A program made the translations under genes and the position numbers. The notes beneath the pieces were generated by a model that saw only the letters and a list, made by a program, of their open reading frames with translations, searched no databases and was not told where the DNA came from. This document shows positions 45,250-49,990 of a stretch of 57,530 nt of DNA, piece after piece. Source of the DNA: a virus. The stretch covers positions 1 through 57,530 of the IMG/VR virus record IMGVR_UViG_3300025870_000017; one strand, given 5' to 3'. Position 1 is the stretch's first letter. The number at the start of each line of letters is the position of its first letter.

Positions 45250-45515
45250 TGCGGTTTAGTCAAGATGATCTTTGGAATCAGATTGCATCCCTTGGTTGGG
45301 ATGTGAGGCATGATAACATTCACATCGAGATTGGTGGCACACAGGTATCTGGTATCGAGCAACCTGAAGGATACAATAAAAAGTGGGCAGCCCAAAAGGG
45401 TGACCGCAAGTATAACAAAGATGCATTCATTGTTATCAAGAACCTCTCACGCAACGATGACACCAAGTCTCAACCCATGGACAGGGAGCATAAACCTCAT
45501 CATCTAAATAGTTAG
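45249..45515 (+). CDS. Small hypothetical protein
   Basis: 88 residues, sharing one base with the MazG-like stop. MRFSQDDLWNQIASLGWDVR, then a middle with IHIEIGGTQVSGIEQP, then polar QKGDRKYNKDAFIVIKNLSR and a polar tail. No recognisable family. A late promoter box overlaps its last codons, marking the end of the early replication group. Confidence 0.55.
   Translation: MRFSQDDLWNQIASLGWDVRHDNIHIEIGGTQVSGIEQPEGYNKKWAAQKGDRKYNKDAFIVIKNLSRNDDTKSQPMDREHKPHHLNS
45504..45510 (+). promoter_or_regulatory. Late promoter (CTAAATA) for the nucleotidyltransferase module
   Basis: CTAAATA 22 bases before the ATG at 45533, in the end of the preceding gene. It begins the late module of 45533-49990. Confidence 0.55.
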
Positions 45516-45532: not shown

Positions 45533-46357
45533 ATGGCAAACAAGGGTTTACAATTTGAGCACGCTGTAATGTATTCTGCTATGAGCAGAGTCACCAGTAA
45601 GTCATCACAAAATAAAAAAGATTTTGATGATGCTGCTGGACGCTATGAAGCCATTCCTAATGACATCAAGCAAGCAGCAGATCGAGTTGTGCAAAACTAT
45701 GCTCCATCTGGTCTCGGTGCAAGACAAGAATACTATTCTTCATTCAAGAAGATGTCTGGTGGTGGAGAAGAACCTAAGACTGATATTAAGTTTAAGTCTG
45801 GTAGCACAGTATATAAGTGCTCAATGAAATGGGGAGACTCTTTTCAACTCTCATCAGCGGGGGTTGATAAGAGTCTTCTTGTTTTACAAAATGTTTTGAA
45901 AAAGACTGCAAAGGACATGGGTGGTAGCACTGATGTTGAGACCCTAGGTTATCTACAATTAGTCCTGGAGCAGATCGGTAACAAGTGTGAGAATGCAAAA
46001 GGCACCATCGCACAACCACAGGCCAAAGCAATCCTCTCTGATATCAAGAAGTCGGGTGGGTTGAATGAGCAACTGCAAGAGATCTTAGGATCAAAGCAGA
46101 AACCTAATGGTGCAGAAGCATATGATAGATTCAAATATAACTTGACGCACGAGTGTATGACTGGTGCCCTCCTGTTTAACGGTGATGACAGGGCAGCATC
46201 TCATATCCTGACAGAGGACGGGATCAAACCCATAGATGAGAAGGCAGTCCGTGACGTGATGAAGGTGGCAGGAGTCAGGGTATCCCTCAAGGGCAGGGGC
46301 AAGGACAAAGTTACAGGTGTCCGTCAGAACGCCATTGTGATCCGATACGAGGTATAA
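45533..46357 (+). CDS. Conserved late protein, possible PD-(D/E)XK-like fold
   Basis: 274 residues. GLQFEHAVMYSAM (Glu near residue 9), KTDIKF (Asp 84) and CSMKWGDSFQL (Ser/Lys near 97-99) lie in the order and spacing of a restriction-endonuclease-like core (E, D, x-x-K), with Ser in place of the usual acidic residue. The C-terminus has YNLTHECMTGALLFNGDDRA. I recall such proteins in cyanophages and other T4-like phages as hypotheticals. The nuclease reading is a weak inference. The following gene, seven bases later, is ligase-like, so an end-processing pair is conceivable. Late promoter upstream. Confidence 0.6.
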   Translation: MANKGLQFEHAVMYSAMSRVTSKSSQNKKDFDDAAGRYEAIPNDIKQAADRVVQNYAPSGLGARQEYYSSFKKMSGGGEEPKTDIKFKSGSTVYKCSMKWGDSFQLSSAGVDKSLLVLQNVLKKTAKDMGGSTDVETLGYLQLVLEQIGNKCENAKGTIAQPQAKAILSDIKKSGGLNEQLQEILGSKQKPNGAEAYDRFKYNLTHECMTGALLFNGDDRAASHILTEDGIKPIDEKAVRDVMKVAGVRVSLKGRGKDKVTGVRQNAIVIRYEV

Positions 46358-46364
46358 TACAGGT

Positions 46365-47549
46365 ATGGCAAACACACACTTAGAGCACCTAGAGGACGAC
46401 ATCCTCAATGGAGGATCCAAGGGAGGTCACAACGCTATCGCATTCTTGCGCTCGCTAGGTGACATGCTTGGCAAACCTCAGTCCAACATGAGGGTCACTA
46501 CTAAGTGGGACGGTGCTCCCGCTGTCATCTGTGGCATTCATCCTGGCACTGGTAACTTCTTCGTGGGCACCAAGGGTGTCTTTGCTAAGATGCCTAAGAT
46601 CTGTGTGACTCATGAGGATGTTGACACATGGTATAGCGGTGCCTTAGCAGAGAAACTTAAAGATTGTCTTAACGAGTTACCTAAGTTAGGTATCAAAGGT
46701 GTGCTACAGGGTGATCTCCTCTTCACTAACGATACGATTGTTAAAAATATTAATGGTGAGAAGTCCTTGGTCTTCCAACCCAACACCATCACCTATGCAG
46801 TACCTGCCGATACAGATATGGCAAAGAAATTGCAAGCAGCGAAGGTGGGCATTGTATTCCACACCTCATATAGTGGTGGTCCTACCCTCCGTGACATGAA
46901 GGCATCCTTTGGTGTTAATGTTAATGGTATGCAGGGTGTGAAGAGTGTCGCTGTATTCTCTTCCAACTTCTCAGACGATAAAGGTAAGTCTTACTTCACT
47001 AATGCTGAGCGTATTCGTTACAATGCTGCTGTCAAGAAGGCAGAAGGATCTCTCAAGCAGGCATCTAAGTTCTTAGATATTCTGCAGACGAGTGGTGAAG
47101 GTAAGTTTATGCTTGCTCCTATGTTTAAGATTTATTTCAACACATATATCCGACAAGGTAAGACATTCCCCAGTGCTGCACAAGTATCCAAGGGATTTGA
47201 AGACTTCTATACTGCTGCACTTGATAAGGAGATCTCCCTCAAGAAGCAGGAGACAACCAAGAAGAAGTATCTTACAATGAAAGAGAATGGTCTGAAGTTT
47301 ATCAAAATGAATAGCACTGCTATCTACATGACTGTCGCTTCCTACATGAATCTCACTGCTGCTAAGACTCTGGTCATCAGACAACTAGAGAAAGTCCAAG
47401 GCATTGGCACCTATATCAAGACTGATAAAGGTTACAAAGTTACTGCACCAGAAGGATTCGTTGCTATCAAGTCGGGCAATGCACTCAAATTGGTGGACCG
47501 CTTGGAGTTTTCCAGAGCGAATTTCACCGTCGAGAAGAACTGGGGTTGA
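46365..47549 (+). CDS. DUF6267-type protein with ligase-like KxDG nucleotidyltransferase motif
   Basis: 394 residues. MRVTTKWDGAPAVICG (K-x-D-G, Lys at about 47) matches motif I of the ATP-dependent ligase / mRNA-capping nucleotidyltransferase fold, in which the Lys takes AMP or GMP. GVLQGDLLF (about 112-120) and VGIVFHTSYSGG may be motifs III and IIIa-like. The C-terminal half is helical (EDFYTAALDKEISLKKQETT). I recognise the family as DUF6267 from T4-like phages; activity is unknown. It may be an RNA/DNA ligase or another nucleotidyltransferase. Its stop is directly at the next late promoter. Confidence 0.7.
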   Translation: MANTHLEHLEDDILNGGSKGGHNAIAFLRSLGDMLGKPQSNMRVTTKWDGAPAVICGIHPGTGNFFVGTKGVFAKMPKICVTHEDVDTWYSGALAEKLKDCLNELPKLGIKGVLQGDLLFTNDTIVKNINGEKSLVFQPNTITYAVPADTDMAKKLQAAKVGIVFHTSYSGGPTLRDMKASFGVNVNGMQGVKSVAVFSSNFSDDKGKSYFTNAERIRYNAAVKKAEGSLKQASKFLDILQTSGEGKFMLAPMFKIYFNTYIRQGKTFPSAAQVSKGFEDFYTAALDKEISLKKQETTKKKYLTMKENGLKFIKMNSTAIYMTVASYMNLTAAKTLVIRQLEKVQGIGTYIKTDKGYKVTAPEGFVAIKSGNALKLVDRLEFSRANFTVEKNWG

Positions 47550-47555
47550 TAAATA
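47549..47555 (+). promoter_or_regulatory. Late promoter (ATAAATA) for the HxGH protein
   Basis: GATAAATA overlaps the previous stop. Transcription would begin near 47562. An ATG lies right there, which would make a leaderless message; the ATG at 47586 gives a leader of about 24 bases. Confidence 0.55.
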
Positions 47556-47585
47556 AAGTATATGGCTGAGTTTTTTAGTAAACCA

Positions 47586-48701
47586 ATGCGATTTATTACA
47601 TTCATAAGAGAAGCAGCGGCTGCAGCAAAACCTGCTGCTAAGAAACCTTCCACATCTAGTAAGGGTAAGTCTCCTGCTGCTCAAGCAAAGATAGATGATA
47701 AGCACGTTGCTATCACCTTCGGTAGGTTTAACCCACCTCATGCTGGTCATGGTAAACTCCTTGATGCAGTCAAGGCAAACGGTGGTGACTCAGGTAACTA
47801 TCGTATCTACCCATCCAGATCACAAGATCATAAGAAGAATCCACTGACTGCAAATCAGAAGGTGGATCACATGCGTAAGATGTTTAAGGGGCACAAGGAT
47901 GCTATCCAAAACAATGAAGCGCATAGAAACATCTTTGACATCCTTCGTGACTTACATGACGAGGGTCATGAGCATGTAACCATGGTGGTCGGAGACGACC
48001 GTGTGAAAGAGTTTGAAACTCTTGCTAACAAATATAATGGTATGCACTATGACTTCAAGTCTATTAACATTAAGTCTGCAGGTGCTCGTGCTACTGACTC
48101 TGATGATCCTATCGAGAATCTGTCTGCATCAGCAATGCGAAAGCACGCCCAAGGGGGTGACCATGATTCATTCCACGCTGGGACTGGTGGATATAAGGAC
48201 TCTAAGAAACTGATGGGTGATGTCATCACTGGGATGACACCTCCACCTAAAGCGAAGAAGGGTAAGAAGGGTGAGTCTGTCCACGAATCTGTGTGGTCAT
48301 ACGCTCCTAAACTTGACTTCGATGCTTTCCGTGATCACTACATGCTCAACCACATCTACAAGGTGGGTGCAATTGTAGAGCACGATGACAGTGGTATCCG
48401 TGGTAGAGTTGCTCACCGTGGCACTAACTACATCATCATGCGTGATGGTTGGGGTGGCGAGCACCGCTGCTGGTTGCAACACATCAGTGAGGTTGCACAA
48501 CTAGGACCATCAGATCTTAGTCACAAGCAAGAGGTTGCTGCTGACACTACTAAGGATCAAAGCAACTATAGTGCCGATGATGGTAGTGGTAACACCTGGA
48601 AAGCAGGCACTGACCTCTATCGCCAAGCACTCCAGGACATGACCCCTGGTCAAAAGGCAGTTAAATTCACAGATTTCAGAAAATCTGCTGAAACTAAATA
48701 G
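47586..48701 (+). CDS. HxGH nucleotidyltransferase (NMNAT / cytidylyltransferase-like) with late expression
   Basis: 371 residues from the ATG at 47586; the frame also has an ATG at 47562, but the late box ends at 47555, and the shorter form begins MRFITFIRE|AAAAA, which resembles a cleavable capsid targeting peptide. The nucleotidyltransferase domain has FGRFNPPHAGHGKLLD (H-x-G-H, 52-55), MVVGDDR (133-139) and NLSASAMRKHA (the SSTxxR-like motif, 180-185). The family adenylylates or cytidylylates small molecules such as NMN or glycerol phosphate. A second domain after about 220 has VGAIVEHDDSGIRGRVAHRG, a beta-rich look. Substrate unknown; NAD synthesis is one option. Confidence 0.75.
   Translation: MRFITFIREAAAAAKPAAKKPSTSSKGKSPAAQAKIDDKHVAITFGRFNPPHAGHGKLLDAVKANGGDSGNYRIYPSRSQDHKKNPLTANQKVDHMRKMFKGHKDAIQNNEAHRNIFDILRDLHDEGHEHVTMVVGDDRVKEFETLANKYNGMHYDFKSINIKSAGARATDSDDPIENLSASAMRKHAQGGDHDSFHAGTGGYKDSKKLMGDVITGMTPPPKAKKGKKGESVHESVWSYAPKLDFDAFRDHYMLNHIYKVGAIVEHDDSGIRGRVAHRGTNYIIMRDGWGGEHRCWLQHISEVAQLGPSDLSHKQEVAADTTKDQSNYSADDGSGNTWKAGTDLYRQALQDMTPGQKAVKFTDFRKSAETK
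48694..48700 (+). promoter_or_regulatory. Late promoter (CTAAATA) for the gene at 48732
   Basis: CTAAATA overlaps the stop region of the HxGH protein, 31 bases before the ATG at 48732. Confidence 0.55.
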
Positions 48702-48731
48702 TATTAGCGAAATTCATTTCGGTTTAGAAAC

Positions 48732-49610
48732 ATGACGTTAGAAATGCTGGTGTCTGTGGCACTCATGGATTACAATCCTACTGAGCAGGCATATATCCTC
48801 AAAGCAATCGAAGAAGATACTCTTCCAAAATCACAGAGACTCCACACAGGTGTCATGAAAGTGATGGAAGCATTCGATGCTTACGAGCCTGTAATTGAAG
48901 GCTATGCGGGATTCAAAGTAGATCGTAACTCCGTCGCAAAGAAGAAGGCAGAGTATAAGGATGATCGAAATGTTGGTCGTGTTGTCCAATCAGGTGGTGA
49001 CTCTATGCTCATCACTGGTAAGAAGGCAGACGGTCGTTACATCGTTGTCGGTAAGAAAGGAGAGAAGTCAGCGAGAGATGCTGCTGACCTCGGCGTGACC
49101 GCTAAAGAAGAAGTGGTCGGCATTGATATCGATGATCTCCATCAACAAATGCTTGAAGGTCTCAAGCAAGCACGCAAGAATGTGGGTGCTAGCAAGTGCT
49201 GGGACGGATACAAAGCAAGTGGCACTAAGAAGAAAGGTGGTAAGGAAGTTCCTAACTGCGTGAAGGAAGAGGATCAGATTGACGAACTCTATAAGGGTAA
49301 GCACGGTCAGTCTGAGAAAGAGTATCAAGACGGTCGCTCACAGGGTGGCAAGATGGTCTCTGGCGATTCTAAAGGGAGTGGTGCAAAATACTCTCACGGC
49401 AGAAGAGTTGACGACGGTGGCGCTGGTCCACAACCTGCAGGTGGTTCTAAGAAACCAAAGGCACAAGGTAGAATGGACAGAGGTGGTCGTGCCGAATTAG
49501 TAATGCGTAAAGCAAACCTCAAAGCAAAGAATGAGCACTTTATAAATAAACTATCGGACTCAGGATTATTTACTGAGGAAGAATTACAAAAGATGGGTGA
49601 GATTGAATGA
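48732..49610 (+). CDS. Hypothetical late protein, Lys/Gly-rich
   Basis: 292 residues. The N-terminus is helical (MTLEMLVSVALMDYNPTEQA), then FKVDRNSVAKKKAEYKDDRN, SMLITGKKADGRYIVVGKKG with beta strands, a CWDGYKASGTKKKGGKEVPN segment reminiscent of short cyanophage head-associated peptides, and a Gly/Lys-rich tail (SGDSKGSGAKYSHGRRVDDG), ending in MRKANLKAKNEHFINKLSDS. Similar composition to the gene at the left edge of the window. No function known. Late box upstream; ATGA into the next gene. Confidence 0.6.
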   Translation: MTLEMLVSVALMDYNPTEQAYILKAIEEDTLPKSQRLHTGVMKVMEAFDAYEPVIEGYAGFKVDRNSVAKKKAEYKDDRNVGRVVQSGGDSMLITGKKADGRYIVVGKKGEKSARDAADLGVTAKEEVVGIDIDDLHQQMLEGLKQARKNVGASKCWDGYKASGTKKKGGKEVPNCVKEEDQIDELYKGKHGQSEKEYQDGRSQGGKMVSGDSKGSGAKYSHGRRVDDGGAGPQPAGGSKKPKAQGRMDRGGRAELVMRKANLKAKNEHFINKLSDSGLFTEEELQKMGEIE

Positions 49611-49990
49611 AACCGATTGGTCATAAAGAATCATCTCTAAAGACTACCAAGAAAGGTAACGTCACCATCAATCCAAAGAAAGAGGACCTTATGTCTGAAC
49701 ATCTGAGAAGTAGAATCGTGAGTAGCGTAGAAGCACTCAAGGAAGCTGCTAAGAAAAAAGACAAGCACATTAAAGCCGCCAAGGCAGGTAAGCGTTGGCA
49801 GGATTCTGACGGCGATGGCAAGTGGTATGAGCCTGGTCAGGATGTCAAGAAAGAAGAATGCGACACCCCTGCTCCCAAGGCAGACAACGTAGCAGACGAC
49901 GCTGCAAAGAAAGTTGCTAAGGATCGCATGAAGGAAAAGATGCTGCAAGCTACTGCCGATTTCGATCGGAAGAAGGCAGGCGGTAAGTAA
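49607..49990 (+). CDS. Hypothetical protein with EF-hand-like DxDxDG loop
   Basis: 127 residues; ATG at 49607, or at 49691 (MSEHLRSRIVSSVEALKE). RWQDSDGDGKWYEPGQDVKK has the D-x-D-x-D-G spacing of a calcium-binding loop, followed by acidic residues. VEALKE|AAKKKDK contains a gp21-like site. The C-terminal part is Lys/Ala-rich (DAAKKVAKDRMKEKMLQATA). Similar DxDGDGKWYEPG peptides occur in cyanophage late proteins, as I recall. Function unknown. ATGA overlap upstream. Confidence 0.6.
   Translation: MKPIGHKESSLKTTKKGNVTINPKKEDLMSEHLRSRIVSSVEALKEAAKKKDKHIKAAKAGKRWQDSDGDGKWYEPGQDVKKEECDTPAPKADNVADDAAKKVAKDRMKEKMLQATADFDRKKAGGK

Follow-up and report, generated by a model that had tools for sequence, protein, structure and literature searches.

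The 57,530-nucleotide virus record IMGVR_UViG_3300025870_000017 (the window, 57.5 kb) is a genome fragment of a T4-like cyanophage whose top DNA matches are to Kyanoviridae, e.g. S-SZBM1 and S-WAM1. Within its replication region lies a run of genes, designated p3 to p7, that probably forms a late-transcribed virion-cargo module, comprising a packaged HxGH nucleotidyltransferase (p5), a co-produced effector (p3) and a ligase- or capping-like member of the DUF6267 family (p4). The module can be read as a variation on the T4-type internal proteins that are packaged in the head, here with enzymes as the cargo, and virion delivery is well supported for p5.

In the proposed mechanism, p5 would be built into the prohead core by means of a T4-type N-terminal capsid-targeting sequence, cut by the phage prohead protease after the residues FIRE and retained in the filled head. 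It would then be ejected with the DNA and work as an NMNAT-like adenylyltransferase from the moment it reaches the new host. p3 would be a variable, nuclease-like effector that is made at the same time and packaged in at least one relative, while DUF6267 would be a covalent nucleotidyltransferase resembling ligases or capping enzymes, in most cases working beside p5 and in some phages fused to it. An initial annotation of this DNA had proposed a three-enzyme late module with an inferred joint function; the motifs and late boxes are confirmed and the motifs are conserved, whereas the nuclease and ligase labels still stand at the level of motifs.

A capsid-targeting sequence on p5

The N-terminus of p5, MRFITFIRE↓A, matches the capsid-targeting sequence of the T4 internal proteins IPII and IPIII, MKTYQEFIAE↓A (arrows mark cleavage, which is predicted for p5). 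Across 23 p5 homologs, F6 and E9 are invariant, F3 is nearly so and A10 is kept in more than 90%, and the linker behind this tag is variable and rich in gaps. The consensus of the homologs, M-K/R-x-F-x-x-F-I/L-x-E↓A, shares positions F/Y4, F7, I/L8 and E10 with IPII and IPIII. In the T4 internal-protein signal, residues 4 and 7 serve targeting and residues 8 and 10 serve processing (PMC9026906). The window copy has one residue fewer ahead of the first Phe than the T4 signal, and the required residues are present.

Of 1304 genes in the neighbourhood of DUF6267 loci, 70 match a strict form of the tag pattern, whereas shuffled sequences give 0.7 (a 100-fold excess). Broken down by family, the share with the tag is 63% for p5 homologs, 44% for adenylate kinases and 16% for DUF6267 proteins, compared with 1% for other genes; homology within families inflates these counts, and the tag still recurs across several unrelated families. 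The complete S-SZBM1 genome has the tag in 3 of its 238 open reading frames (ORFs), one of which encodes the p5 homolog. The same tag opens pelagiphage-type DUF6267 proteins and adenylate kinases, and when the DUF6267 and p5 profiles were compared as a negative control, nothing but the tag aligned.

The only other strict match in the window is an ORF at 940-1209, which begins MKSFNEFITED... and whose remainder matches a C-terminal domain common to many cyanophage PHROGs (727, 11180, 4689). Phage adenylate kinases (L062 6636-7256; L049 2954-3541; others) frequently begin with the tag and may be virion cargo; those of pelagimyophages have been published as auxiliary metabolic genes (PMC7029224). 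P-loop kinases (L049 3528-4214, L053 9826-10500, others) have variable N-terminal peptides that end in L/I-x-E-G before a conserved V/L-Y-D, and these ends likewise resemble prohead-protease sites.

Detection of homologs in virions

Virion presence rests on published mass spectrometry (MS) of homologs, not of the window phage. The p5 homolog was detected in virions of S-SM1, as T4-GC190 (PMC3037559), of S-SZBM1, as protein _140 together with the p6 homolog _139 and the head protein _136 (PMC9146016), of S-CREM2 (PMC10665884) and of S-SCSM1, where it was named NMNAT (PMC9602691). The S-SCSM1 record marks five consecutive products, _89 to _93, as virion proteins; the NMNAT, _91, begins MKSFLQFLKEA, and the nuclease-like _90 carries D...S-L-K and belongs to PHROG_1462, the family of the largest cluster in the variable slot described below. 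Delivery of enzymes with the particle, one of several roles considered in the initial annotation, is strongly supported for p5 by the targeting sequence and by virion MS in four phages, and in S-SCSM1 it is also supported for a nuclease-like neighbour, _90. That NMNAT-like proteins are carried in virions was already proposed by the S-SCSM1 authors in 2022 (PMC9602691); what appears to be new is the targeting mechanism, together with the hypervariable slot and the wider cargo.

A late island in the replication region

The gene run lies between the replicative helicase (43223) and primase (51991) genes and consists of MazG (44596), p2 (45249), p3 (45533), p4 (46365), p5 (47562, better 47586), p6 (48732), p7 (49607), p8 (50028) and a head protein (50247). 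The five ORFs from p3 to p7 are all present in the ORF list where they had been placed initially. The late-promoter box TAAATA was found within 70 nt 5′ of 13 of the 86 window genes tested, compared with 2.2 under random placement (maximum 8 in 1000). The late boxes reported earlier on the module are real, and they number four, not three, preceding the genes at 45533, 47586, 48732 and 49607. A fifth box in this region precedes the head-protein gene, and the remaining box-bearing genes mainly encode structural or head proteins, among them tail sheath, portal, scaffold and tail tube. In the same scan of window genes, no TAAATA box was found at the flanking helicase, MazG and primase genes. The module is thus a late island within the replication region.

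The p5 nucleotidyltransferase

p5 matches PF01467 (E 1.7e-8; 35.1 bits against a cut-off of 21), has the (H/T)xGH motif and belongs to PHROG_395 (E 2e-84). Both signatures read from it initially, H-x-G-H and SASAMR, are present, the former as GRFNPPHAGH; its first His is frequently Thr among homologs. The start at 47586, also taken from the initial annotation, is preferred over the ORF caller's 47562 because many homologs begin there and because the late box ends just 6 nt before 47562. The NCBIfam matches of p5 are of NMNAT, PPAT or FAD-synthetase types, and an NMNAT-like adenylyltransferase activity has about an even chance of being correct.

Searches of the PDB with p4 and p5 as single sequences found no relatives, and a match of p5 to PF20819 (T4_Rnl1_C; E 0.2) was dismissed as noise. 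The C-terminal part of p5 (window 48300-48500) is a conserved small domain, phrog_4808, which is a separate gene in S-RSM4 (L003 6754-7008), where its label 'ribonucleotide reductase alpha subunit' is probably wrong.

DUF6267 carries a ligase-like motif array

p4 is a full-length member of PF19782 (E 7e-129; 430.9 bits against a cut-off of 27). The K-x-D-G motif placed near Lys47 in the initial annotation is exactly K47-x-D-G and is invariant in 40 long forms; its K, D and G are kept in 18 long and short forms, x varying. Across long and short forms, the residues H5, E7, H8, E10, D11, K47, D49, G50, Q115, D117, E363, G364 and K375 (window numbering) are invariant. These supply, in order, the motif I Lys, motif III acidic residue, motif IV Glu and motif V Lys of covalent nucleotidyltransferases. 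In the predicted structure (predicted local distance difference test, pLDDT, 88.5), both the motif order and the placement of the motifs on strands agree with ligase motifs I, III, IV and V, and a helical insertion occupies about residues 200-345.

Foldseek found no match for this model in the PDB, a profile search against PDB ligases was negative and so was hhalign against a T4 Rnl2 profile, which is narrow (Neff 2.7). In BFVD, the first neighbour with a named function outside the DUF6267 relatives is a phage RNA ligase, at an E-value of just 0.028. Because the PDB fold and Rnl2 profile matches are lacking and the BFVD match is weak, 'ligase-like' is here a claim about motifs. RNA_ligase (PF09414) was found in T4 only among seven phage records.

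No function is recorded for the DUF6267 family, and no paper naming it was found in the literature searched. A cellular origin was considered and rejected: judged by titles and lengths only, all 23 matches to contigs from bacterial or archaeal genomes seem to be phage contigs that were binned with metagenome-assembled genomes. DUF6267 is essentially a phage family.

A hypervariable, nuclease-like slot

Many different families fill the position directly 5′ of DUF6267, and BLAST finds no connection between them (63 genes in 13 clusters at E 1e-4). In p3, which fills this slot in the window, E9, D84, S97-x-K99 and Q105-L106 are invariant among 39 homologs. Clusters with at least three divergent members were compared with 16 divergent control clusters by invariant-column statistics: 7 of 7 slot clusters keep D and, after it, S-x-K as invariant residues, against 2 of 16 controls that keep D followed by S/E-x-K (p about 1.5e-4). 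In P-SSM2, the protein in the corresponding position carries a PD...E-V-K of classical appearance. These results support the view that the restriction-like core suspected in p3 is a class property of the slot.

An S-x-K variant occurs in PD-(D/E)XK nucleases such as Cfr10I, Bse634I and NgoMIV. p3 shares E...D...S-x-K with these enzymes and differs in having no fold match. In its AlphaFold (AF2) model (pLDDT 87), D84 and S-x-K lie around a beta hairpin that follows the E9 helix, and Foldseek found no PDB match, so that nuclease activity is put forward for p3 as a motif-level prediction. Profile searches of the PDB with alignments A2, A3, A5 and A7 gave no relatives, and a Pfam scan of the slot proteins was uninformative.

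Linkage and fusion of DUF6267 and the nucleotidyltransferase

A nucleotidyltransferase follows DUF6267 within 4.5 kb at all 39 environmental loci with enough sequence, and the two are fused in PHROG_455 and in a 591-amino-acid S-PM2 protein; the absence of conserved linkage that would have spoken against the module was thus not encountered. In pelagiphage-type contigs, the fusion partner of the nucleotidyltransferase is a Pol-beta-type domain, a P-loop kinase or a PAP2 domain, and tagged adenylate kinase and NT5C-like genes are close by. Single chains that join a P-loop kinase or PAP2 domain, a Pol-beta-type domain and an HxGH nucleotidyltransferase are found at L058 11180-13921, L055 1846-4836 and L062 8906-11251.

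Alternative explanations

Several observations weigh against a packaged module. The strict tag pattern is matched by only 36 of 57 p5 homologs, the S-RSM4 homolog lacks the tag, and p3, p4, p6 and p7 of the window have no targeting sequence. Cleavage of p5 after FIRE is a prediction from its sequence. In S-SZBM1, virion MS did not detect the DUF6267 protein _141 or the slot protein _142. In P-SSM2, S-N03 and ACG-2014f, about 90-100 kb separates the nucleotidyltransferase gene from a short-form DUF6267 that is surrounded by small genes, and DUF6267 lies outside the module in S-SCSM1 and some other lineages; the tag is kept on the nucleotidyltransferase in P-SSM2 and S-N03, the two phages in which its N-terminus was read. 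The authors of the S-CREM2 (PMC10665884) and S-SCSM1 (PMC9602691) studies also caution about carry-over through CsCl purification. The virion signal could accordingly reflect contamination by an abundant late protein, with the N-terminal motif a coincidental helix, but this is highly improbable given repeated detection in four independent phages, the rarity of the motif in other genes and in shuffled sequences, and its agreement with the experimentally defined residues of the T4 signal.

Other readings concern what the enzymes do. The module might be an end-healing or repair set for phage DNA or host RNA, in which p3 would do the cutting or trimming and DUF6267 the sealing or adenylylation of ends, with healing by kinase, phosphatase and Pol-beta partners of the pelagiphage type. 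The invariant DUF6267 motif array, its modelled strand order and the BFVD neighbour are consistent with this, and in pelagiphage-type loci there are also genes for AAA_33/PNK-like kinase, NTP_transf_2/Pol-beta, adenylate kinase and NT5C. Neither DUF6267 nor p3 has a PDB fold match, however, DUF6267 does not match ligase profiles, kinase and phosphatase genes were not found beside DUF6267 in the window, and repair needs neither late expression nor packaging of p5. End-healing, as suggested in the initial annotation, is therefore conceivable for DUF6267 itself and, as an account of the module, somewhat unlikely. Rebuilding of NAD+, in which p5 would be a packaged NMNAT that restores NAD+ against an NAD-depleting defence (NARP2-like), is unlikely: p5 weakly matches the NMNAT models NadR, NadM and TIGR00482, and its S-SCSM1 homolog is annotated as NMNAT and virion-detected, but p5 misses all NCBIfam NMNAT equivalog cut-offs by far (best 23 bits against 112), and DUF6267 and the nuclease slot would be left unexplained. 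NAMPT is absent from seven of eight complete module phages (not found in S-SM1, S-SZBM1, S-RSM4, P-SSM2, HTVC008M, P-RSM6 and S-N03, nor in the window fragment), and Stenotrophomonas phage DLP6 (L294 1438-2556; L292) has NAMPT beside a NadM-Nudix gene, a NARP2-like pair distinct from its module nucleotidyltransferase. Because of this missing NAMPT and separate NadM-Nudix, the module enzyme is unlikely to be the NMNAT of a NAMPT salvage route, and the two-enzyme form of the NAD+ suggestion made initially is unsupported. Finally, p5 could be a cytidylyltransferase that uses CTP with glycerol phosphate or a similar substrate for envelope modification, since records carry the annotation 'cytitidyltransferase' and a glycerol-3-phosphate cytidylyltransferase has been suggested (PMC9146016); with no CDP-glycerol model among its NCBIfam matches, and with a K-K-N-P-L motif that resembles one in the DLP6 NadM-Nudix protein, this is very improbable.

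Relation to known systems and implications

The proposed packaged-cargo module shares with T4 IPI-IPIII and Alt, which have a capsid-targeting sequence, gp21 cleavage and ejection, the signal M-K-x-F/Y-x-x-F-I/L-x-E↓A, late expression, virion presence of homologs and variable neighbours. It differs in its cargo, a nucleotidyltransferase whose active site is conserved, which is linked or fused to DUF6267 and whose ejection we infer. p5 is a member of the cyanophage virion 'NMNAT'/cytidylyltransferase family (T4-GC190, PHROG_395), for which virion detection is published and a catalytic role is predicted; the targeting signal and genetic module apparently have not been described before. DUF6267, in which the ligase-like array is newly recognised here, shares motif order and predicted strand placement with ATP- and NAD-dependent ligases and capping enzymes (Rnl2-type), and differs from them in its large helical insertion, the Asp in motif III and the lack of a fold or profile match and of a separate C-terminal domain. 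NARP2 (NAMPT and NMNAT) resembles the module in its NMNAT-like enzyme, and differs because almost all module carriers lack the NAMPT partner.

The p5 family is a core gene of nearly all marine T4-like cyanophages and is currently classed either among the auxiliary metabolic genes or as a cytidylyltransferase; its repeated appearance in virion proteomes would be accounted for by a capsid-targeting sequence. The tag would offer a simple sequence test to predict injected proteins across marine T4-like phages, and early host takeover by the ocean's commonest phages becomes directly testable. The hypervariable nuclease-like slot points to an arms race at a single fixed locus. A bolder and quite improbable proposal is that these phages inject a kit for nucleic-acid processing that is active ahead of all phage gene expression: a nuclease of diverse sequence would cut host, plasmid or rival-phage DNA, DUF6267 would be a new ligase-like enzyme that uses NAD+ or ATP, the NMNAT-like domain, fused or adjacent to it, would turn released nicotinamide mononucleotide (NMN) back into NAD+ and, in pelagiphages, adenylate kinase would recycle AMP.

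Features of the module and neighbouring genes

Table 1. Coordinates of genes, motifs and late-promoter-like boxes in the window.
Feature	Position	Strand	Basis or conservation
Late-promoter-like box TAAATAG before the 45533 gene	45505..45511	+	box scan
p3, PHROG_22045; hypervariable-slot protein, E9...D84...S97-x-K99...Q105; PD-(D/E)XK-nuclease-like by motif	45533..46357	+	
p4, DUF6267 (PF19782); ligase/capping-like motif array	46365..47549	+	PF19782 match; AF2 pLDDT 88.5
Motif I, K47-x-D-G	46503..46514	+	invariant
Motif III-like, Q115-G-D117	46707..46715	+	Q, D invariant; G over 90%
Motif IV-like, E363-G364	47451..47456	+	invariant
Motif V-like, K375-L-V	47487..47495	+	K invariant
Late-promoter-like box TAAATA before p5	47550..47555	+	box scan
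p5, HxGH nucleotidyltransferase, NMNAT-like, 371 amino acids from the preferred start; predicted virion cargo	47586..48701	+	PF01467, PHROG_395
Capsid-targeting sequence MRFITFIRE, predicted prohead-protease cut before Ala10	47586..47612	+	likeness to T4 IPII/IPIII
Active-site motif FGRFNPPHAGH (H-x-G-H)	47718..47750	+	homolog alignment
SASAMR motif	48123..48140	+	S-A-S and R invariant, 23 homologs
Late-promoter-like box TAAATAG overlapping the p5 stop codon	48695..48701	+	box scan
p6, hypothetical; virion proteins among its homologs: S-SZBM1_139 and, in part, S-SCSM1_89	48732..49610	+	
Late box TATAAATA before p7	49541..49548	+	
p7, hypothetical, PHROG_24377	49607..49990	+	
EF-hand-like loop DSDGDGKWYEPG in p7	49802..49837	+	sequence

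The EF-hand-like loop described initially in the gene at 49607-49990 corresponds to DSDGDGKWYEPG, which is indeed EF-hand-like, except that position 12 lacks an acidic residue. A segment of p6, C-W-x-G-Y-K...G-T-K-x-K-G-G-K-x-V-P-N-C (window 49195-49262; L062, L085), recurs in many otherwise different phage proteins.

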